A DNA stretch of 64,000 bases from Pseudomonadota bacterium. Lineage in GTDB: Bacteria > Desulfobacterota > Desulfovibrionia > Desulfovibrionales > Desulfomicrobiaceae. This document shows positions 9,149 through 45,633 of this stretch, one piece after another. The DNA lies in assembly GCA_018902545.1 (NCBI GenBank), contig JAHIQM010000005.1, positions 124,001 through 188,000 on the forward strand. The letters run 5' to 3'. How positions within the stretch are numbered: position 1 is the first letter of the stretch; every line of letters begins with the position of its first letter. The notes under the pieces were generated by a model, which saw nothing but the letters and a program-made list of their open reading frames with translations, did no database searches and was not told the DNA's origin. Both the position numbers and the translations under genes were made by a program.

Positions 9149-10240
9149 ATGCAATGGCTCAGATCCCTGTTGGGACTGCACGACCACGCCGATCTTTTTT
9201 CGCCCGTGCCGCCCAACCCGGCCCAGGACGCGCTGGCCGCCATCGACGACCTCTCGCGCGCCATGCGCAACCATCAGGGGGCCGTGGATATCTGCTCGGC
9301 CCTTGGCAACCTCTACCGCATGCGCGGAGAGCTGGATCGGGCCATTCAGATGCGCAGCTCCCTGCTGCACCGCGTGGACTTAAGCCGCGAGGATCAGGCG
9401 CGGGTCTGGTTCGAACTCGGACGTGACTATTCCCGGGCCGGGATTCTGGACCGGGCCCAGGAGGCCCTGCGCCAGTGCCGGGACATCGGGGGCGAGAATC
9501 CAGCCCTGGACCTGGAACTGGCCCTCTTGCACGCCAAAGGTGGAGATTTCCTGTCCGCCAGCCGTCAATACAAAAAGATGGGGCACAACCTGCAGGCGGC
9601 GCATTACCTGGTCCGCGCCGCAACGACCGGAAGCGGCGTGACGGACCTGGGGCTTCTGGCCGAGGCCAGGGAAATCCATCCCGCCTCCCCCGAGGCATGG
9701 CTCGAAGGGATCATGTTTCAGATCAACCAGGAGGCGTGGGACAATGTCCTAGTCCTTCTTGATCAGGGGCTTGGGGCCGTGGGGCCGAATCTGGGTTTTG
9801 TGCTGCTCGACCCGCTGCTTGATTTCGAGGACTCGGGGGTTCCCGTGAAGGCCATCATCCCGGCATCGTATCTGGATGGCCTGCTCGCCGTCATCGACAA
9901 GCACCCCCCGGATTTGGCCCCGCTGCATTACGCCGGTTGCCTGCTGCGCGCCCACGACCGTGTGGAGGAGGCCAAGACCTGGCAGGAGAAGACCCTGCTC
10001 ATGAGCCCGGCCTTCTGGCCCGCACGCCTGGAGCTTCTGACCATGTCCCTGCCCGAGCAGCACATGACTCCGGTCTTCGAACTGCAGTTGGAGTTTCTGC
10101 TGCGCCGGGCGCGGGAAGCCAAACGTTTTGTCTGCGGCCGCTGCGGGTTGAAACGCGGGCAGATCTTCTTCTGTTGCCCAAAGTGCATGTCCTGGCACTC
10201 CATCACTATCCGCCAGCTCTTAAGCGACGAGGGATCATGA
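9149..10240 (+). CDS. lapB: LapB-like TPR protein with C-terminal rubredoxin-type metal site
   Basis: A 363-residue helical-repeat protein. TPR-like motifs run from about residue 30 (GNLYRMRGELDRAIQ, ELGRDYSRAGILDRAQEAL) to about 320. The C-terminus has CGRCGLKRGQIFFCCPKCMSW, the two-CxxC rubredoxin-like knuckle that defines LapB/YciM. In E. coli LapB binds FtsH and LpxC and regulates LPS synthesis. Unlike E. coli LapB I see no clear N-terminal membrane anchor here, which may mean LapA or lipids recruit it. Start is the ATG at 9149 after GGAG. The last codons overlap mutS by ATGA. Homology is good; function is inferred. Confidence 0.82.
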   Translation: MQWLRSLLGLHDHADLFSPVPPNPAQDALAAIDDLSRAMRNHQGAVDICSALGNLYRMRGELDRAIQMRSSLLHRVDLSREDQARVWFELGRDYSRAGILDRAQEALRQCRDIGGENPALDLELALLHAKGGDFLSASRQYKKMGHNLQAAHYLVRAATTGSGVTDLGLLAEAREIHPASPEAWLEGIMFQINQEAWDNVLVLLDQGLGAVGPNLGFVLLDPLLDFEDSGVPVKAIIPASYLDGLLAVIDKHPPDLAPLHYAGCLLRAHDRVEEAKTWQEKTLLMSPAFWPARLELLTMSLPEQHMTPVFELQLEFLLRRAREAKRFVCGRCGLKRGQIFFCCPKCMSWHSITIRQLLSDEGS

Positions 10241-12855
10241 GCACGGTCAAGGTCACGCCCATGATGGAGCAGTTCCTGCGGGTCAAGGGAGAATATCCGG
10301 ACACCCTGGTCTTTTTCCGCATGGGCGATTTTTTCGAGCTGTTCTTCGAGGACGCCCAAATCGCGGCCCGGGAGCTGCAGATCACCCTGACCAGCCGTAA
10401 CCCCGGCGCGGAAAATCCCGTGCCCATGTGCGGCATGCCCCACCACGCCATCGACGAATACCTGCGCCAGCTTCTGGACAAAGGGTACAAGGTGGCCCTG
10501 TGCGACCAGGTCGAGGACCCCAAACAGGCCAAGGGACTGGTCAAGCGCGAAGTGACCCGCGTGCTGACCCCGGGCACACTGGTCGAGGACATCAGTCTCG
10601 ATGCCAAGGGCCACAATTTTCTCGGTGCCCTGTTCTGGGATGCCGATCTGGGCGGCGGCCTGGCCTGGGTCGATTTTTCTACGGGCGCATGGTCGGGCAT
10701 GCAGACCAAAAACGAAGCCGCGCTCTGGCAGTGGCTGGTCAAGATGAACCCGCGCGAGCTGCTCCTGACCGAGACCCAGGCCCTGCCCAAGGGTCTGGAG
10801 CAGTGGCAGTCCAGACTGTCGCGCTATCCGCAAAAATCCTATTTCGACGGCCGCGGGTCCGGAGATAAGATACTGCGCGCCCAGGGCGTACCCAACCTGC
10901 AGACCCTTGATCTCGATGACAAGCCCGCTCTGACCCGCTGTTGCGGCGCACTTTTGACCTATCTGGAGCTGACCCAGAAACGCGACCTGACCCACCTCGC
11001 CCCCTTCGTTCCCCTGGATCTCTCCGCCACCCTGCTCCTGGACGAGGTCACGGAACGCAACCTCGAGCTTTTCCGGACCATGGACGGCGGCAAGGGCCGC
11101 GGCACCCTGTGGCAGGTCCTGGACCAGACCCAGACCCCCATGGGCGGCAGGCTGCTGGAAACCCGCATGCACCAGCCCTTCAAGGATCTGGGAAGCATCC
11201 AGCCGGTACAGGAACTGGTGGCCTACCTGCATGACCGCGATACGGTCCGCGAGGACCTGCGCCGGGCCCTGGACACGGTCTATGACCTGGAGCGGCTGTG
11301 CACGCGCATCGTCGTCAACCGCTCCACGCCCAAAGACTTCGGTGCCCTGAAGGTGTCTCTGGGCGTTTTGCCCCGGCTGCGGCAATCCCTGCTGGCGCTG
11401 GAGTCTGCGCCGCCCAAGCTGACCGATCTGCTGCGCCTCTGGGACGACCTGGACGACGTGCACGGCCTGCTGGCCCGCGCCCTGGCCGACTCCCTGCCAC
11501 CGGTCATCACTGAAGGCGGACTGTTCCGGCCAGGCTACGACCCGGAACTGGATGAACTCATGGAGCTGACCGACCACGGCGAGGCGGCCCTCACCGCCAT
11601 GCTCGAACGCGAACGCGCGGCCTGTGATCTGCCCAAGCTCAAGATCGGATACACCAAGGTTTTCGGTTATTATTTTGAATTGAGCAAAGCCGTTGCCCTT
11701 GAGCCGCCGGCCCACTTCATCCGCCGCCAGACCCTGGTCAACGCCGAGCGCTACATCACCGAAGAGCTCAAAATCCTTGAGGACAAGCTTTTAAGCGCCT
11801 CGGACCGGCGCAAGACCCGTGAATACCAGCTCTTTCTCACCCTGCGCGAGGAAGTGGCCGGACACCGGGCCCGTTTCATGGGCATGGGCAAGATCCTGGC
11901 CGAGCTCGATTTCACCCAGGGACTCGCCCACGCCGCACGCAAATGGGAATGGAACAGACCCGAGCTGCACGACGGCCTGGACATCGCCATCAAGGGCGGT
12001 CGCCATCCCGTGGTCGAGGCGGTGCAGGGGCGCTCAAACTATATCCCCAACGACCTGACCCTCGACGACTCCGGCCGGGTGCTGCTCATCACCGGTCCGA
12101 ACATGGCCGGCAAATCCACGGTGCTTCGGCAGGTGGCGCTCATTTGCATCCTGGCCCAGATGGGCTCCTTTGTGCCCGCCGCCTCGGCCCGCCTGGGTCT
12201 GTGCGACCGCATCTTTTCCCGGGTCGGTGCATCGGACAACCTGGCCATGGGCCAGTCGACCTTCATGGTCGAGATGACCGAGACAGCCCGAATCCTGCGC
12301 CAGGCAGGCAAACGCTCCCTGGTCATCCTGGACGAGATCGGCCGTGGCACGAGCACCTTCGACGGGCTGTCCCTGGCCTGGGCCGTGGCCGAAGAACTGG
12401 CCAGGCGCCAGGGCGGCATCCGCACCCTGTTCGCCACGCACTACCACGAACTGACCGTGCTTGAGGAGCGCTTGCCCGGCGTGCGCAATTACAATATCGC
12501 CATCAAGGAATGGAAGGGCGACATCGTTTTCCTGCGCCGCATGGTCCCCGGACCCGCCGACCGCAGCTACGGTATCGAGGTCGCGCGCCTCGCGGGAGTT
12601 CCGGCCTCGGTCGTGGTCAGGGCCAAGGAAGTGCTGGAGGTGCTTGAGCGCCACGCCCCGGGCGGCGGGAGGCGCAGTGATATGATCACGCGGCAGGTTG
12701 CCCTGCCCGGCCTGGGCCGCACCCCGGCTCCGCAGAAGCAACCCGCGGAGCACAAAGTTCTCAGCGCCTTGAAAAAACTCAACGTCAACGAGCTTTCCCC
12801 CCTGGACGCGCTCACCCTGCTCCACCAGTGGAAAGCAATGGCAGGATCGTCATGA
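10237..12855 (+). CDS. mutS: DNA mismatch repair ATPase MutS
   Basis: An 872-residue MutS. The mismatch-binding N-terminus (MMEQFLRVKGEYPDTLVFF, FRMGDFFELF with the Phe-x-Glu type contact in family position) is followed by connector, lever and clamp domains. The ATPase has Walker A GPNMAGKST, the STFMVEM strand, Walker B LVILDEIGRGTSTFDG and FATHYHELT. Length is normal for MutS1. It recognises mispairs and, with MutL, starts repair. I start it at the ATG of an ATGA overlap with lapB; a much longer upstream reading in this frame is just overlap with lapB. It overlaps the lipoprotein gene by another ATGA. Confidence 0.97.
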   Translation: MSTVKVTPMMEQFLRVKGEYPDTLVFFRMGDFFELFFEDAQIAARELQITLTSRNPGAENPVPMCGMPHHAIDEYLRQLLDKGYKVALCDQVEDPKQAKGLVKREVTRVLTPGTLVEDISLDAKGHNFLGALFWDADLGGGLAWVDFSTGAWSGMQTKNEAALWQWLVKMNPRELLLTETQALPKGLEQWQSRLSRYPQKSYFDGRGSGDKILRAQGVPNLQTLDLDDKPALTRCCGALLTYLELTQKRDLTHLAPFVPLDLSATLLLDEVTERNLELFRTMDGGKGRGTLWQVLDQTQTPMGGRLLETRMHQPFKDLGSIQPVQELVAYLHDRDTVREDLRRALDTVYDLERLCTRIVVNRSTPKDFGALKVSLGVLPRLRQSLLALESAPPKLTDLLRLWDDLDDVHGLLARALADSLPPVITEGGLFRPGYDPELDELMELTDHGEAALTAMLERERAACDLPKLKIGYTKVFGYYFELSKAVALEPPAHFIRRQTLVNAERYITEELKILEDKLLSASDRRKTREYQLFLTLREEVAGHRARFMGMGKILAELDFTQGLAHAARKWEWNRPELHDGLDIAIKGGRHPVVEAVQGRSNYIPNDLTLDDSGRVLLITGPNMAGKSTVLRQVALICILAQMGSFVPAASARLGLCDRIFSRVGASDNLAMGQSTFMVEMTETARILRQAGKRSLVILDEIGRGTSTFDGLSLAWAVAEELARRQGGIRTLFATHYHELTVLEERLPGVRNYNIAIKEWKGDIVFLRRMVPGPADRSYGIEVARLAGVPASVVVRAKEVLEVLERHAPGGGRRSDMITRQVALPGLGRTPAPQKQPAEHKVLSALKKLNVNELSPLDALTLLHQWKAMAGSS

Positions 12856-36899: not shown

Positions 36900-38429
36900 C
36901 TATTCTTTCCCCTCTTGGCCGCCCTTGACCTTTTTTTGAGTGGTGAGCCATTCGTTGAGTTCCATGATCTCCTTGGTGATGTGGTATCGACCGTTGGCGA
37001 ATACCCCGTAATCTCCACCCCCGGCCATAGCTGAAGCAAAGCGGATATGGTTCGCATAAAACAGCCAGATGTCGCTCCAGCGCCTTTCGATCGCCTCATC
37101 AAACGGACTCCCTCCCGCCAGATGGTTGACAGCGTACCCGCTTTTCCAAATGTCTGTCATGATTTTAGTCGCTTCCAAGGTGTCCGCGTTGGTTGTCTGA
37201 ACCGTCTGCTCAAAGCGCTCCCAGAACACGTCCACCCAGGCGCTGCCGTGACAGGAACGGCAAACGGTTGACATGTTCTCTTTGCGCTCGGCCATTGTCG
37301 ACGCATTGATCAGAAAATCTTTGGCGGTCGTTCCATCAAAGTTGGTCGGTAGCGGCAGCCCTTCGTCATTGCGAATAATGCTCGTATCCGGGGAAACGGG
37401 ATGCGGATGGGCGTAGATCAGCCCAAAAATCCGCCACGGCAACCGATCCGTCATCTGGTGCGTCCGCGGCACAATTTCGTTTCCGGCCGGGTCCGCCAAC
37501 AGGCTGACATGACAGCTTGCGCAGGTGGGCGCGGTGAAATCCTCGCCCACGGTCCACGGGACGTTCGTGAAGTTCCATTCCTTGCCGTGGGTAGAAAACA
37601 TGTTCCCATGGCGACTGGCGGAATAAACCTTGTAAGCCGGGACGTCGGGGCCAACGTGGCATTTTTTGCAAGTATAGGGCTGTCTGGCCATTTCGATGGA
37701 AAACTGATGCCGGTTGTGGCAGGCTCCGCAGGTCCCCAAACTGTCATCCGTATTCTTCCGGCCTACGCCCTGGTTCGGCCAGCCGTTCACCACCGGAAAA
37801 TCCATCAAACCGTGGAGGGTGTCCCGTTCCTTGAAGCCCATGACCTCCAGTTTTGTTCCATGACAGTGCAGGCAGGACTCAGCCTGGGTTAACGGGTCGG
37901 CTGGGGTGAAATCGAGCTGCTGTCCTTTGCGCGCAACCCGGCCTTCGATAGTCCTGGCCAGATCCATGTAAAGGGGATTTTCAACAAGATTGCCTCGGGC
38001 GTGGGCCATCAGGTTGCGCGAGAACTGATCGGCTTCCTGCGTATGGCAGGTGGCGCAGTCTTTAGGGCTGACAGCCGTGTGCACTTCATATCCGCCGTGA
38101 TCGAAGGTCCCGGCATGGGCCTCGGCCCGCTGGGTGTGGCACTCGGCGCAGCCCACAGCCACGTTCAGGAAACGCTCCGGGATCTCCTTGCTTGAGACCT
38201 TCAACCCCAACCCCTGGACTTGCATCGCCTCACCAGGGGTGATCCGGGAGTGTCGACTTTGCCGCCAAGCCGAAACTATCCCGGGATGCAATTCTTCATG
38301 ACAGGAGAGACAATCCTGGGAGTCACTGCTGACCGGGACTGACTCCAATTCCACGAGCCCCGCATTGGACAGGGAAACCATTCCCGCGGCCACCGTCGCC
38401 AACAGCAAGACCATTACGCGGTTTAGCAT
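36900..38429 (-). CDS. octaheme c-type cytochrome, HAO-like
   Basis: A 509-residue periplasmic cytochrome with a signal peptide (about 1-23) and eight CxxCH motifs at Cys 40, 94, 125, 186, 234, 254, 303 and 390. Number, spacing and the C-terminal WLFYANHIRFASAMAGGGDY region resemble hydroxylamine oxidoreductase-type octahemes. Non-nitrifier members of that group reduce nitrite or hydroxylamine, or act on other N or S compounds. I start it at 38429, with AGAGGTG upstream, rather than 60 bases earlier. No membrane quinol oxidase lies next to it. Perfect 17-bp inverted repeats flank the gene closely. HAO-like is my call; octaheme nitrite or tetrathionate reductase is less likely. Confidence 0.88.
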   Translation of the reverse strand: MLNRVMVLLLATVAAGMVSLSNAGLVELESVPVSSDSQDCLSCHEELHPGIVSAWRQSRHSRITPGEAMQVQGLGLKVSSKEIPERFLNVAVGCAECHTQRAEAHAGTFDHGGYEVHTAVSPKDCATCHTQEADQFSRNLMAHARGNLVENPLYMDLARTIEGRVARKGQQLDFTPADPLTQAESCLHCHGTKLEVMGFKERDTLHGLMDFPVVNGWPNQGVGRKNTDDSLGTCGACHNRHQFSIEMARQPYTCKKCHVGPDVPAYKVYSASRHGNMFSTHGKEWNFTNVPWTVGEDFTAPTCASCHVSLLADPAGNEIVPRTHQMTDRLPWRIFGLIYAHPHPVSPDTSIIRNDEGLPLPTNFDGTTAKDFLINASTMAERKENMSTVCRSCHGSAWVDVFWERFEQTVQTTNADTLEATKIMTDIWKSGYAVNHLAGGSPFDEAIERRWSDIWLFYANHIRFASAMAGGGDYGVFANGRYHITKEIMELNEWLTTQKKVKGGQEGKE

Positions 38430-38501
38430 GTAACACCTCTCATGACGTGTCTTCGTTATTGGAGCGTTTGCGAAAAAGGCGAGGGTCAAAAAAGGCGAGG
38501 G

Positions 38502-39151: not shown

Positions 39152-39841
39152 TCACAATTCAACCATTTTAAGTAATCGTAAAGGGTTAAGTACGGTTATC
39201 TGCCTGCCTTTGACTATGATTATACCTTCCGCTTGATAGTTCTTGAGGAGTTCGCTGACGGTCTGCTGCGTTGAGCCAACCATTGATGCGAGTTGCTCCT
39301 GGGTCAGCTTCAGGGGAATAGTCAGGGGGCGTTGCCAGCCGGACTCGTCTGGTATGTATTCGTGGCAGAGATAGGCGAGGAGTTTGGCTAACCTTGTGCC
39401 AACGGTGCAAACCATCAGGCTGCCCGCAATTTCTCCGAGGTACCGCAGTCGGCGTCCCAATGTCCGGATGACTTGTCGTGCGGCAAGATAATTTTCAGCC
39501 AGAAAACGTTCAAAATCAGCACCAGACATTTCATAGACGATACATGGAGACAGCGCTTGGGCGTTGGCCTTGCGGTTTTCTCCGTCCATGACTTCAGCCA
39601 GTCCGAAGAGTTCACCGGACCGACGCAAGAAAAATATTGGCTCCTTTCCACACGGAGCTATCTGAAAAATTTTAATCAAGCCGGATTCGAGATAAAAACA
39701 GCTCTCTCCTGGGTCCTCTTCGAAAAAAATCATGTCCTTTTTTTGAAGGACACGTCTGCGTGCCCCAGACAAAAAACTCCTCCGCTCCTTCTCCAGGCCT
39801 TCAAAAAAATCATCTTCACCCAGATGCCAGTGCCTCTCCAT
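39152..39841 (-). CDS. Crp/Fnr-family transcriptional regulator
   Basis: A 229-residue regulator with a cyclic-nucleotide-type sensor domain (IFFEEDPGESCFYLESGLIK, GELFGLAEVMDGENR) and a winged HTH (LTQEQLASMVGSTQQTVSELL). There is no N-terminal Cys cluster as in oxygen-sensing FNR, so it more likely binds a small ligand or a haem. Start at 39841 follows a GGAG; a GTG 18 bases upstream is less likely. It follows the AprB-like gene on the same strand after a terminator-like hairpin, so it is the natural candidate regulator of the transporter/reductase operon. Confidence 0.9.
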   Translation of the reverse strand: MERHWHLGEDDFFEGLEKERRSFLSGARRRVLQKKDMIFFEEDPGESCFYLESGLIKIFQIAPCGKEPIFFLRRSGELFGLAEVMDGENRKANAQALSPCIVYEMSGADFERFLAENYLAARQVIRTLGRRLRYLGEIAGSLMVCTVGTRLAKLLAYLCHEYIPDESGWQRPLTIPLKLTQEQLASMVGSTQQTVSELLKNYQAEGIIIVKGRQITVLNPLRLLKMVEL

Positions 39842-39887
39842 GGGATATCTCCATGACACAATTGCCGGTTTGCTTGAAGAGTAGCGA

Positions 39888-39927
39888 AAGGCGGCCTACG
39901 TGTCGACGTGGATACGGAAGCCGCCTT
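39888..39927 (-). terminator. hairpin between the AprB-like and Crp genes
   Basis: AAGGCGGC and GCCGCCTT form an 8-bp stem around a 24-base loop that itself holds an ACGT-GTCG-ACGT palindrome. There is only a short T-run on the minus strand, so termination may be partial. Confidence 0.55.
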
Positions 39928-39941
39928 CATGCTGTTATTAG

Positions 39942-40268
39942 CTATTTGTCCATTCTGTTCCGGTATTTGTAGGTTTCTTCCTTGCCATTGATGTCCACAC
40001 ATTTCCAGGTGATGGTATTGGAACCCATAATTGGTTTTAGTGAGGCCTTATGGTAGCCGATCTGATACGGCACCCTCGTTTCTATTGCTTTAGTTGGGCA
40101 GGCTTTGGTGCAGGACATGCAATCCCAGCAGTCGCCGGCAAAACGCACATACGCCTTGTTGGTTCGAGGATCGACGGCCATCAGGTCGCCGGGACACGCC
40201 TCTTCACATTTAGATTCAGGCAACCCTTCACAACCGTTGCATTTGTTCAGATTTACGCGTGGGGGCAT
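39942..40268 (-). CDS. AprB-like ferredoxin subunit (two [4Fe-4S])
   Basis: A 108-residue iron-sulfur protein. CNGCEGLPESKC and CEEACPGDLMAVD match the unusual first cluster loop of APS reductase beta subunit, and CWDCMSCTKACPTKAIE gives the second cluster. True AprB is about 150-165 residues and has a long tail that wraps round AprA; here the tail is cut to about 40 residues (IMGSNTITWKCVDINGKEE region). AAAGGAGG precedes the ATG at 40268, 20 bases after the AprA-like stop. It should pass electrons to or from the AprA-like flavin. It is not the main APS reductase subunit. Confidence 0.87.
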   Translation of the reverse strand: MPPRVNLNKCNGCEGLPESKCEEACPGDLMAVDPRTNKAYVRFAGDCWDCMSCTKACPTKAIETRVPYQIGYHKASLKPIMGSNTITWKCVDINGKEETYKYRNRMDK

Positions 40269-40288
40269 AATTATCCTCCTTTGATGTT

Positions 40289-42079
40289 TTAGCTTTTGAA
40301 TCGTTCGCCGGGTACGAGTTGGACGTACGGGCGTGTAAAACACTCGACCTTTCCGGTGAGCGGGTCGCGACGAGTTTCGATGAAACAATCAAAATTTTCG
40401 TCGTCACGTTCTGGGTAATCGGTACGAGTCTGCCAACCCGCCCAACGTGTTTCCTTGCGCCCCTTGAGGTGATGAACCACAGCTTCGGCAACATCTACTC
40501 TGTCCATGGTCTCATTCGCCTGCATGAGTTCGTGCAGATCCGCAACCTTGAGGTATTTGAACTGGTCTTGAAGAATAGCAATGTGCTTGAGGGCGTAGTC
40601 CAGGCGTTCTTCGTTGGTTCGGTAGAACTGGGATGATCCGCCAGCGTATTCATCCATTAGACGCTGAAGTCGGTCTTTCATGGCTCGGGGGGCGATGCCA
40701 TCATAATCTCCGCCACGGAACAGAGGCGCGTAGACTCGTTCGAGCTCAATGCGTATCTGCTCTTCGTCCAGATCTTTTGGCAGAGAAATCTGATTTTCAT
40801 CCATGTACTTAATGGCACCGCGGGCAGCTATTTTGCCTTCTGCAGCACATCCACCCACGAATTTGTTCGGGTTTCCACCGGCGGTTTCACCTGCGGCGAA
40901 CAGTCCGGGCATGGTGGTCATACGGTCCAGGTTGACCCAGAATCCACCCATGGTGTGGCCGCCCATTATGTAGGGGTCGGAACCGAATATCTCAATGGGC
41001 TCCTTGGTTGGATCCTGCCCGCGAGCTGCGAGAAAGAGAACGAAGGATGGACGTTCGTTGAGATAGTCACACATCATTCGCCAGTTTGTCTCTTTATCCA
41101 TCCCGCGCGTGTCGCAGTACGTCGGCCCTCGACCTTGAAGCCATTCTTCCATAGGTGCATTAGCTCTTATATACCGGGGTGCAGAGTCGCCACCAAGGTG
41201 CTTGTAACGCACTTCCATAATTTTTTCATCTTTACAGTTGATGATTGGAGCCTTGTATCCTACTGAAATTGTATCAACAGGGCCGCAAAAATCTTTCGTT
41301 CTAGTGGCAACCCAGCGCTGTTCCAGGCTGGTAAGCTCAACACCATGGCGAAAACCCATAGCGTATCCTGATCCAACACAATAAGGACACATCCAAATCT
41401 GTGCGCCGGAATCAGTTGAATCTGCTGTGTATGATTTATATAGAGTTCCAGCACCGCCTGTAGAATTGACTGTCGCTTTAGAGCGGAAAACGTAGAAATC
41501 ACCAGTGCGAACATGTATGCCCATTGCACCAATGCAATATCCTTCACCGTCCTTGAGCAGACCTGTAGCGGCAATGCGGTTATAGACGTCGGCACCGCAT
41601 TCGATGGCCTTTTCAGCCATGATGGGTTTCAGCTGTTCGCCGTGAATGGAAATATCCCATTTGCCCCGGTATCTCACCGATCCATCTTCCTCGCGCAGAA
41701 CGGGCAATCCCCAGCGTTCCAGGTCGTCAACGGCTTCGTTGAGCTCCTTGGCATTGGATAGGGCGAGATCTTCGCGCAACGGTCCGCCTCCGACTTGATC
41801 TCGAGACCAGCGGACCAGGTCTTCAGGCGTCTTTCCATTCGGAATGTATGTATTGATGGCATCCATTCCGGCGGAGCATGCGCCGGAACGCATGATTTCG
41901 GCCTTTTCCATGATGACAACTTTCAGCTCAGGATTTATTTTCTTAGCTTCCACTGCAACGAAGCATCCGGCATTTCCGCCGCCAATAATCAGCAGATCGC
42001 AATCAACAATAATGGTTTTTACGTCGTCCACGCTCTTGGGCCGAAAGTCGATGGCCCGTTTTGCAGGTATGTTTGCCAT
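40289..42079 (-). CDS. AprA-like FAD-dependent oxidoreductase of unknown substrate
   Basis: A 596-residue flavoprotein of the APS reductase/fumarate reductase superfamily. The FAD motif is LLIIGGGNAGCF (29-40); RSGACSAGMDAINTY and EQRWVATRTKDFCGPV match the AprA-specific segments. By alignment with A. fulgidus AprA, Trp 229, Arg 260 and His 375 correspond to W234, R265 and H398 near the flavin. The next pair, Phe277-Leu278, thought to contact the APS adenine, is Ser-Val here. It is about 70 residues shorter than AprA at the C-terminus. It follows the DASS gene by 25 bases and precedes the AprB-like gene. A different imported substrate is my inference. Confidence 0.87.
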   Translation of the reverse strand: MANIPAKRAIDFRPKSVDDVKTIIVDCDLLIIGGGNAGCFVAVEAKKINPELKVVIMEKAEIMRSGACSAGMDAINTYIPNGKTPEDLVRWSRDQVGGGPLREDLALSNAKELNEAVDDLERWGLPVLREEDGSVRYRGKWDISIHGEQLKPIMAEKAIECGADVYNRIAATGLLKDGEGYCIGAMGIHVRTGDFYVFRSKATVNSTGGAGTLYKSYTADSTDSGAQIWMCPYCVGSGYAMGFRHGVELTSLEQRWVATRTKDFCGPVDTISVGYKAPIINCKDEKIMEVRYKHLGGDSAPRYIRANAPMEEWLQGRGPTYCDTRGMDKETNWRMMCDYLNERPSFVLFLAARGQDPTKEPIEIFGSDPYIMGGHTMGGFWVNLDRMTTMPGLFAAGETAGGNPNKFVGGCAAEGKIAARGAIKYMDENQISLPKDLDEEQIRIELERVYAPLFRGGDYDGIAPRAMKDRLQRLMDEYAGGSSQFYRTNEERLDYALKHIAILQDQFKYLKVADLHELMQANETMDRVDVAEAVVHHLKGRKETRWAGWQTRTDYPERDDENFDCFIETRRDPLTGKVECFTRPYVQLVPGERFKS

Positions 42080-42104
42080 AATTTTGTCCTTCTTAATGTT
42101 AAGG

Positions 42105-43652
42105 TTAGAACGGCCAAGGTGCGGTCGGGTCCCAAACAGGGATGCCTAAAAATGCATACCACGGAGCCATAACCAGTAACCCATAAGCAATTGCAATAAG
42201 GATGCAAACCCAGCCAGATTTGGCGTAGTCGGCCACGGAAAATTCATCCGATCCGGATGCAATGACTGCGGCAGTAATTTGGGTGGGAAGTAAATAGGCG
42301 AATGTATCGGTATCGCATACAAGTAGCGTAAACGCCACTGGGTGCACTCCGAGTTTAGGTGCCATTGCGAAGATTACAGGAGCTAGCATGGCTATTGCAG
42401 CTACATTTGAGAGCATTCCGATGCGGATGATGTGCGTTCCAACCATGAGTGCCAGTACGGCCTGCCACCAGTTCATATCCAAGACAAACGTGTGAATGTG
42501 GTGAGCAAGAAAGTCGGCAAGGCCGGATATTGTCATTGCTGATGTCATGGTGATGGCTCCTCCAAGCAACAGGAAGGTGCCCCAAATAGTGCGTTGCTGG
42601 ATCGCCTTCCAAGAGCAGGGAGTAATGCCGGGAATAAACAGAAACAAAATGCCGATGAGTCCAATGACGCCGAGTTGGTGATTGTGCAGTTCCATAATGG
42701 GACTGCCCTTGCCGGTCATGAAGAGAAAGGCGACGAGAACGAAAATACCGAGCAGAACCCACTCCGCCTTGCCCATGGGTCCAAGTTCTTTGTACTCTTT
42801 ATGGATGGCTTCGTGCCCACCACCGACGCTCACGCCTTTGGTCTTGAAATGGTATTTCACCCACCATTGGGTCAGTACGAACATGCCTAGGTAGGGAAAC
42901 TGGAGCAACATCCAGTCAAGGTACCCCAGATTACTGTATCCGTTCGCGTCGAATATGCCCAACATGATCATGTTTGGCAGATGTGCTGTCATGATAAACA
43001 CACCGCAAATCATAGTGCCGTATACCAGGGATTGAATGACGATGGCCTTGCGAGCTTCGCGTTCTCGTGGCGTATCCCCCATCAAGTTCGTGATACCTTT
43101 TACCACAGGAAGCAATGTTGCAGCGCGGGCGTTGGCCGCTGGAATGAGAAACGCCAGGATGATGTTGACGAAGAACATCCCCCAGATGACTCGTCCGACG
43201 GTCGACGCCTTGATTTTATCAAGGATGCCGAGTGCGATACGTCGGTCTAACCGGATAAGCTGCATAATCGCACCGACAAAGAACGCGAACAAACAAAGCC
43301 ATACGACATGTTTGGTGAAGCCTGAAAACACAATGTCCATGGGTGGCTTGCCTTTCACGTAGGGAATGCCTTCGGTCAGGATGAGCAGTGTTGGCACACT
43401 GATGCCGGTTATACCCACGGGCATGGCTTCGCTTACCCACATGATCGATGCCCAGACAACGATAGCTAAGACAGCCATGCCGTTGTCATTCAGTCCCTCC
43501 GGATTGGGCAGTACTTGCCAGATAAGGAAAAAGAACACCCAGGCGGCGACGAACCCCCCCAATGATTTGACAGGACTTTTCCCGCATTCCTCAAGGTTGC
43601 CGAGGATGTAACCGGTCAGTCCATTCCTGGCTTTTGGCAGAATTTTCTCCAT
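42105..43652 (-). CDS. DASS/SLC13-family anion symporter
   Basis: A 515-residue transporter with about 11-13 membrane segments. Family landmarks are AIVVWASIMWVSEAMPVGIT, the first hairpin AFLIPAANARAATLLPV (the place of the usual Ser-Asn-Thr), the second hairpin GMLSNVAAIAMLAPVIF, and LVCDTDTFAYLLPTQ. DASS proteins import di- and tricarboxylates, sulfate and related dianions, mostly with sodium. A near-perfect AAGGAGGTG site precedes the ATG. It is the first gene of the DASS/AprA-like/AprB-like operon, so it probably imports the reductase's substrate. The altered first hairpin could mean an unusual ligand. Confidence 0.9.
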   Translation of the reverse strand: MEKILPKARNGLTGYILGNLEECGKSPVKSLGGFVAAWVFFFLIWQVLPNPEGLNDNGMAVLAIVVWASIMWVSEAMPVGITGISVPTLLILTEGIPYVKGKPPMDIVFSGFTKHVVWLCLFAFFVGAIMQLIRLDRRIALGILDKIKASTVGRVIWGMFFVNIILAFLIPAANARAATLLPVVKGITNLMGDTPREREARKAIVIQSLVYGTMICGVFIMTAHLPNMIMLGIFDANGYSNLGYLDWMLLQFPYLGMFVLTQWWVKYHFKTKGVSVGGGHEAIHKEYKELGPMGKAEWVLLGIFVLVAFLFMTGKGSPIMELHNHQLGVIGLIGILFLFIPGITPCSWKAIQQRTIWGTFLLLGGAITMTSAMTISGLADFLAHHIHTFVLDMNWWQAVLALMVGTHIIRIGMLSNVAAIAMLAPVIFAMAPKLGVHPVAFTLLVCDTDTFAYLLPTQITAAVIASGSDEFSVADYAKSGWVCILIAIAYGLLVMAPWYAFLGIPVWDPTAPWPF

Positions 43653-43852
43653 GAAATCACCTCCTTCAAATTGTCAGAAACTGGGCCTCGTTTATGCAAC
43701 AAGCGTCCTTGTTGATACGATGCCTTATTTCAGAGCGAGGAGTTGTTTTCTATCGGAGCGACGATAAAAAAGTGAGATTCGTGGACGCGGATGTGACTCG
43801 CATGAATGGAGAGTTGAATTACGCGGACCCTAGCAAAGAGGCGTTACGCAAA

Positions 43853-44883: not shown

Positions 44884-45633
44884 CTATATTACTCGCTTAA
44901 TTTCTTGATATTCGCCTGTGGTGGTAAGCTGAAGTGTGACATCTTTGTTGGTTCTGTTTCTCCAGAACCAGCCATGAGATCCGTCAAATGCCGCTACGAG
45001 GGTGCCGATGCTTTTTTGTATTTGGCGCTCCTTGCTGTAGCTGTGAGAAGAGCCTTTGGCGGGGGGCGTAGGCTCTCCATGAACATCAACGTTAACTGGC
45101 CCGTCAGATACCCACTCGTAGTCGGCAGCGGCATTTTCGCTCATAATCATTTTGATTTCAGCTCCCTGCCCAGGGCGTAGCGTAATTGTCATGGTATCCT
45201 GCTTTTTAGGCGTGATCTGCGATGCTGATACTTGTGGCGCAACAGTTTGTGATGCAGATTCCGGCACAGCAGCATGAGCCTCCGCGTCATGGCTGTGGCC
45301 GTGCTGACCCCATGATGCAATGGTTTGCGATACAGATTGCGGCGCGGCCTGCGGTGCTGGTACCTGGGGGGCTTCAGGGGCTGTTTGCGTTGAAGCCATA
45401 GACGTATCTTGCAAGGCGTCTGCTTTGGCTTCTTCAGCCAAGGCCACCTTGATTTCACCCATTTTAGTCAGGCCGAGAGTACCTCCGATCCCGGTAGGGT
45501 CAATGCCGTACTCTGAAGGCAAAACAACTGTTACAAGCAAAATGCAGGCGGCAATTAAGGCAAGGACAGTGGAGCGGACCAGTTGTTTTGAGCTGGGAAG
45601 TTCCGCACGGGAAGGTATATTGCTATTGTACAT
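44884..45633 (-). CDS. membrane-anchored protein with His-rich linker, HupE-associated
   Basis: A 249-residue protein with one N-terminal membrane helix (about 20-42), a long Ala/Pro/Gln-rich linker (45-150) containing WGQHGHSHDAEAHAA, and a C-terminal folded domain (about 155-249: TITLRPGQGAEIKMIMSE, GSHGWFWRNRTNKDVTLQ). The His cluster could bind metal ions in the periplasm. It starts 11 bases after the HupE-like stop behind AGGAGAAT. Such anchor proteins next to HupE/UreJ genes recur in bacteria without known function. A role in metal delivery to or from the HupE-like protein is inference. Confidence 0.8.
   Translation of the reverse strand: MYNSNIPSRAELPSSKQLVRSTVLALIAACILLVTVVLPSEYGIDPTGIGGTLGLTKMGEIKVALAEEAKADALQDTSMASTQTAPEAPQVPAPQAAPQSVSQTIASWGQHGHSHDAEAHAAVPESASQTVAPQVSASQITPKKQDTMTITLRPGQGAEIKMIMSENAAADYEWVSDGPVNVDVHGEPTPPAKGSSHSYSKERQIQKSIGTLVAAFDGSHGWFWRNRTNKDVTLQLTTTGEYQEIKRVI

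Follow-up and report, generated by a model that had tools for sequence, protein, structure and literature searches.

What does an AprA-like flavoprotein do when its gene lies beside an anion importer, in a genome that also contains a separate, true AprA? This arrangement is found in the window, the whole stretch of 64,000 nucleotides that was analysed, which lies within contig C4 of the source genome (3.7 Mb, 22 contigs). The true AprA is encoded on contig C14. The locus in the window consists of four genes and a palindrome:

42105-43652, minus strand: DASS-family anion symporter (TIGR00785, 203.5 bits against a cut-off of 198.6; PF00939)
40289-42079, minus strand: AprA-like flavoprotein of 596 aa, hereafter FP (aprA model TIGR02061, 382.7 bits)
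39942-40268, minus strand: AprB-like ferredoxin of 108 aa, hereafter FD, with two [4Fe-4S] sites (eight Cys) and the electron-relay residue Trp48 (TIGR02060, 77.8 bits)
39152-39841, minus strand, with an alternative GTG start at 39859: Crp/Fnr-family regulator (PF00027 and PF13545)
43751-43766, no strand: palindrome TATCG-N6-CGATA, a predicted Crp/Fnr operator based on sequence conservation

Gene families of the window locus

The intergenic gaps are 25 bp between DASS and FP, 20 bp between FP and FD, and approximately 100 bp between FD and the Crp gene. The original prediction of a minus-strand block of DASS transporter, flavoprotein, two-[4Fe-4S] ferredoxin and Crp/Fnr regulator agrees, in its positions and in its 25- and 20-bp gaps, with the open reading frames and the family models. 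The block is not a chance arrangement, and the same arrangement is present in dozens of genomes. The regulator is a member of the Crp/Fnr family, with its cNMP_binding and HTH_Crp_2 domains both above cut-off.

The FP score for the AprA model is under the cut-off of 641.75, which places FP outside AprA. The match to the sdhA_frdA model TIGR01812 for fumarate reductases and succinate dehydrogenases is likewise under cut-off (147.1 bits, cut-off 567.3). Among solved structures, FP is most similar to the alpha subunit of MtPAPSR (586 bits), followed by the AprA of A. fulgidus (430 bits), the AprA of D. gigas (292 bits) and succinate dehydrogenase (100 bits). FD scores under the AprB cut-off of 135.65, and its alignment covers positions 1-102 of 132. 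Among 84 distinct relatives, at least 97% keep its eight Cys and W48. Both subunits had been described as lacking the long C-terminal parts of AprBA. This holds for FD, from which the AprB tail is missing, but not for FP, which has its C-terminus and is missing internal loops. A truncated AprA-type C-terminus in FP is ruled out because the alignment extends to residue 639 of 643 in A. fulgidus AprA. An AlphaFold model of FP built from a 10-row alignment has a mean pLDDT of 53 and was set aside as a basis for interpretation.

The palindrome precedes the DASS start by 98 bp and is the sole exact copy in the 3.7-Mb genome. Exact copies are present in 33 of the 85 loci of relatives, against 1.0 expected from mononucleotide shuffles, many of them 50-250 bp ahead of the operon's first gene, in loci with DASS and TauE carriers alike. 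The palindrome is rare in TctABC loci (2/19), and no common palindrome specific to TctABC-type loci was found. The standard Crp site TGTGA-N6-TCACA is not present upstream of the window DASS gene. From this conservation, the neighbouring Crp/Fnr protein is predicted to bind TATCG-N6-CGATA.

Two other features flank the block on the minus strand. An octaheme cytochrome with eight CxxCH motifs (36900-38489) is encoded about 0.66 kb past the Crp gene; it resembles HAO and hydrazine dehydrogenase (PF13447), and its NF052343 score of 62 bits is far under the cut-off. As a module partner it is rejected, since no such gene is near FP in 20 other loci. A HupE/UreJ_2 protein (PF13795; 45645-46379) adjoins a His-rich, probably secreted protein with no family match (44884-45633).

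Phylogeny, active site and distribution

In a quick IQ-TREE phylogeny of 66 proteins, with one distant flavoprotein (L025) as outgroup, AprA, the MtPAPSR group and FP form three separate groups with SH-aLRT support of 100, 95 and 90, respectively. FP thus branches outside the AprA clade, the check proposed with the original prediction, and also outside the PAPS reductase clade, in a tree made up of AprA, the MtPAPSR group and the single outgroup. The nearest neighbours of the window FP are sequences from the Desulfovibrionaceae.

Both neighbouring groups contain enzymes that share much with FP/FD. AprBA (A. fulgidus 1jnr/2fja; D. gigas 3gyx) has the same fold, FAD, two [4Fe-4S] clusters and relay Trp; FP/FD differs from it by scoring under both AprBA model cut-offs, by the absence of the AprB tail, by replaced pocket residues and by its occurrence in genomes without sat. 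MtPAPSR, the PAPS reductase of Methanothermococcus thermolithotrophicus (PDB 8a8o; PMC10322725), is also an AprBA-type pair with FAD, two [4Fe-4S] clusters and the sulfite-holding tetrad, but it belongs to the other clade and its nucleotide-pocket residues are replaced in FP. In most MtPAPSR-group loci inspected (e.g., L227-L234), ATP sulfurylase, APS kinase or CysDN-like genes can be recognised by eye, a setting consistent with assimilatory (P)APS reductases. None of these operon genes is found in the FP loci inspected, where the neighbours are instead an anion carrier, Crp and Hdr genes.

In the active site, 30 FP rows were compared with AprA and the (P)APS-reductase-like groups, using a published list of APS contacts (PMC2211403). 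In A. fulgidus AprA, N74, W234, R265 and H398 hold the sulfate group of APS (PMC2211403). The FP equivalents are N76, W229, R260 and H375; they are present in 30/30 FP rows, and the tetrad is invariant across all three groups, as is R317 (A. fulgidus numbering). The retention of W234, R265 and H398 noted from the sequence alone is thus located at definite FP residues. The contacts to the nucleotide part of APS are different. Q145, G274, F277, L278 and H446 of AprA are replaced in 30/30 FP rows and read D142, D269, S272, V273 and N405 in FP, which bears out the Ser-Val noted in place of F277-L278. AprA Y95 corresponds to W91, and F261 to W256. D142, D269, W91 and V273 are invariant in FP alone, and W256 (one Leu) and S272 (one Ala) are nearly so. 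Among the MtPAPSR residues K120, R121 and S122, which bind the 3'-phosphate, K120 is mostly kept and the other two correspond to W141 and D142. The FP pocket is read as one that keeps the sulfite chemistry of AprA but is smaller and acidic, so that APS would no longer fit. By every sequence sign examined, in a comparison that covered AprA and the MtPAPSR group, FP/FD would work like AprBA.

FP/FD is a real and widespread AprBA-type module that falls outside both AprA and MtPAPSR and is undescribed in the literature searched. Within the order, 46 of the 247 genomes, including that of the window, contain FP or an orthologue with at least 68% identity. Below these there is a clear gap, and the next matches (37% identity or less) belong to other families. 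Further orthologues in the phylum sample are 65-74% identical. A scan of named genomes with two short peptide patterns returned 69 loci with 52-81% identity to FP, a number that is not exhaustive. The FP loci come from Desulfovibrionaceae, other Desulfobacterota, Nitrospirota, Bacillota, one Chloroflexota MAG, one Burkholderiales MAG and one Euryarchaeota MAG, and the orthologues occur as a conserved block in at least six phyla. Cultured carriers are Desulfovibrio piger and the Bacillota Moorella stamsii, Desulfoscipio geothermicus and Desulfovirgula thermocuniculi. Among the 22 genomes searched from the GTDB family of the source genome, only the source genome itself has a close FP orthologue. 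Together with the Desulfovibrionaceae sequences that stand closest to it in the tree, this makes transfer from a Desulfovibrionaceae-like donor the probable origin of its FP.

Carriers, Hdr proteins and sulfite reductase genes near FP

The neighbourhood survey covers 85 loci, with a few organisms counted twice. FD nearly always follows FP, and a Crp/Fnr gene is nearby in most loci. The carrier is DASS in 48 loci (two divergent groups), TctA in 19, TauE/SafE in nine and unclassified in nine. A divergent DASS is accompanied by a PhnD-type binding protein in some Nitrospirota and deltaproteobacterial loci. The importer link is therefore widely conserved and not unique to the source genome. DASS as the partner of FP is real and recurrent, but three types of carrier (DASS, TctABC and TauE/SafE) can take this place, and their interchange rules DASS out as an essential partner. 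In a 79-row alignment, the window DASS has PAANARAA and SNVAA where VcINDY has its SNT carboxylate-binding motifs, and both FP-linked DASS groups are without the two VcINDY motifs. The families that replace DASS in FP loci have known sulfonate or sulfite transport, as in the TauE/SafE proteins and in SlcHFG, the TctABC (TTT) system for sulfolactate (PMC5812351); in FP loci this is a candidate role.

Except in most Desulfovibrionaceae, the gene after FD encodes an HdrA with an FlpD/MvhD domain, often with HdrB or HdrC as well, and one locus extends into an NAD-binding Flx-like set. This resembles the Hdr-Flx and QmoABC-type (HdrA/QmoA) systems, Qmo being the counterpart for AprBA. In contrast to these systems, the window operon has no Hdr gene, as is the case for most Desulfovibrionaceae FP loci, and coupling of FP to Hdr proteins is a proposal drawn from gene order.

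A dsrA gene above cut-off is present in 39 of 43 FP genomes, from several phyla. The remaining four comprise one genome with a weaker match of dsr type and three possibly incomplete MAGs. True AprA above cut-off is missing from 13 of the 43 genomes and ATP sulfurylase from 11, although several FP carriers are MAGs, in which a missing aprA or sat may reflect incompleteness. Seven genomes have dsrA and are missing both AprA and ATP sulfurylase (G629, G654, G655, G656, G659, G660 and G661). They include an isolate, Moorella stamsii (G659), and Cand. Bilophila faecipullorum. In these seven, FP is therefore not the APS reductase. In the phylum of Moorella (299 genomes, with FP carriers defined by an FP score >930 bits), dsrA is present in 9/9 FP carriers and in 32/290 other genomes (Fisher p = 7.5e-9, a value that ignores relatedness).

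The module adjoins dsr genes in two genomes. A Chloroflexota MAG (G657) has DASS-FP-FD-HdrA and, about 5 kb further on the same strand, dsrA-dsrB-dsrD-dsrC and a dsrM-like gene. In G669, the order Crp-DASS-FP-FD-HdrA-HdrC-HdrB is followed on the same contig and strand by dsrK-, dsrO- and dsrP-like genes (by eye) and dsrA. The co-occurrence with Dsr is evidence of company and not of product, and most carriers are sulfidogens by ancestry.

Other proteins recur in these neighbourhoods. In L165, a PF03601 (YeiH-like) membrane protein (9500-10627) separates the module from the dsr genes, and proteins that resemble it by eye are near dsr or FP genes in L180, L215 and L220. An 806-aa protein without a Pfam match (L174, 2304-4721) and a similar fragment (L177, 1-566) are near the module in two distant lineages. 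A sulfotransferase-like protein, similar by eye, is near the module in two genomes (L092, 11766-12911; L178, 1486-2625).

Proposed function and alternatives

Taken together, the sequences suggest that the FP module probably supplies DsrAB with sulfite that it frees from an imported sulfur anion. The original prediction, that the enzyme reduces (or oxidises) some imported anion distinct from APS, is borne out in part. The separation of FP from the AprA and PAPS reductase clades and the conserved importer link are consistent with it, and the two outcomes named beforehand as refuting it, a place inside AprA and a DASS linkage confined to one genome, are both contradicted; the unspecified anion is narrowed to a sulfur anion that yields sulfite, and the direction is one that we infer. 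The narrowing is made because of the near-universal company of DsrAB, the frequent HdrA/B(C) and the invariant sulfite-binding residues. The module would be an import-and-cleavage unit under Crp/Fnr control that feeds sulfite respiration. Its carrier would import a small sulfur-bearing anion, probably a dianion. As in AprBA chemistry, N5 of the reduced FAD would attack the sulfonyl sulfur and a leaving group other than AMP would depart. The N5-sulfite adduct would then free sulfite, which DsrAB would reduce to sulfide. FD would pass electrons on to FAD and, in genomes that encode HdrA/B(C) complexes, would receive them from these.

The identity of the anion is a more tentative matter. The diversity of carriers suggests an anion that three unrelated families can import. 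FP/FD may represent a third AprBA-type enzyme class, one of flavin-based reductive desulfonation in which C-S cleavage of an imported organosulfonate gives sulfite for DsrAB, but this is a possibility of below-even likelihood. A small carboxylated sulfonate such as sulfoacetate is the best single substrate class and is, as a specific choice, rather doubtful. The glycyl-radical sulfite-lyases (IslA/IseG, HpsG) and SuyAB also supply DsrAB with sulfite from organosulfonates (PMC12890257), but they are unrelated to FP in both enzyme and chemistry.

Taurinivorans muris bears on the choice of substrate. Taurine, sulfolactate and thiosulfate all support its respiration, and it possesses AprAB while Sat and Qmo are missing (PMC10507020). 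Its AprAB is transcribed but is undetected as protein on any of these three substrates, and it does not grow on sulfate, sulfite, isethionate, cysteate or DHPS (PMC10507020). In G119 (L235), the sole full-length match to the AprA model is FP, in a Crp-TctC-TctB-TctA-FP-FD locus (TctB by position). G119 is very probably T. muris, and its annotated AprAB is very probably the FP/FD of the module. In that case, thiosulfate, sulfolactate and taurine become less likely as substrates.

Two of the alternatives concern thiosulfate and the oxidative direction. With the same bond chemistry and sulfide as the leaving group, FP/FD could be a cytoplasmic thiosulfate reductase that splits imported thiosulfate to sulfide and sulfite, with HdrA giving low-potential electrons. 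DASS and TauE-type carriers would suit this dianion, but thiosulfate import by TctABC is not known to us. M. thermoacetica, in which DsrAB is expressed, is a user of thiosulfate (PMC10504309), and T. muris respires thiosulfate without PhsABC (PMC10507020). Against this, the probable FP/FD of T. muris is undetected on thiosulfate (PMC10507020), and thiosulfate use in D. alaskensis proceeds via PhsAB and perhaps DsrAB (PMC4215793). A thiosulfate reductase is therefore considered unlikely. Running oxidatively, FP/FD would consume sulfite, either to detoxify or to disproportionate it, and form a sulfonated or thiosulfate-like product. In favour of this are the reversibility of AprBA, the export function common among TauE/SafE members, and the Burkholderiales MAG carrier, which has AprA and DsrA with no ATP sulfurylase match. 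TctABC and PhnD-type binding proteins, however, imply uptake, and genomes without AprA and Sat would need another source of sulfite, which leaves this direction improbable.

The other two alternatives are a non-sulfur substrate and a second APS or PAPS reductase. TctABC and DASS are also classical carriers of plain carboxylates, and the fold of FP is that of the fumarate reductase superfamily. A non-sulfur anion, e.g., an unsaturated carboxylate, might thus be reduced, as it would be by a fumarate or cinnamate reductase, with the Dsr company reflecting lineage only. This is distinctly unlikely given that the MtPAPSR and AprA scores are far above those of succinate dehydrogenases, the SO3-holding tetrad is invariant, the FP-linked DASS groups are without the SNT motifs, and dsrA is nearly always present and in two genomes adjoins the module. 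A second APS or PAPS reductase would agree with the homology to AprBA and MtPAPSR and is the least credible reading, with very little probability. It is rejected because of the separate FP clade, the pocket, in which the five AprA residues and R121/S122 of MtPAPSR are replaced, and the missing sat; the FP blocks inspected contain no recognised Sat, APS kinase or Qmo gene, and the seven dsrA-bearing carriers have neither AprA nor ATP sulfurylase.

FP/FD can easily be mistaken for APS reductase in annotation, with sulfate reduction wrongly credited to the organisms that carry it. This seems to have happened with the published AprAB of T. muris, which has neither Sat nor Qmo, and an AprAB label would then be no sign of sulfate reduction there. 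Organisms that respire sulfite but do not activate sulfate must obtain their sulfite from other sources, several of which are unexplained. Reductive desulfonation, if true, would be a non-radical alternative to the glycyl-radical sulfite-lyases, and an organosulfonate substrate would mean a new route to hydrogen sulfide, the gut included.

The compound 3-sulfopropionate was also weighed as an FP substrate. Its route in B. wadsworthia is unknown (PMC12890257). The named-genome scan, with its two peptide patterns, returned no FP from B. wadsworthia and did return the FP of Cand. Bilophila faecipullorum.
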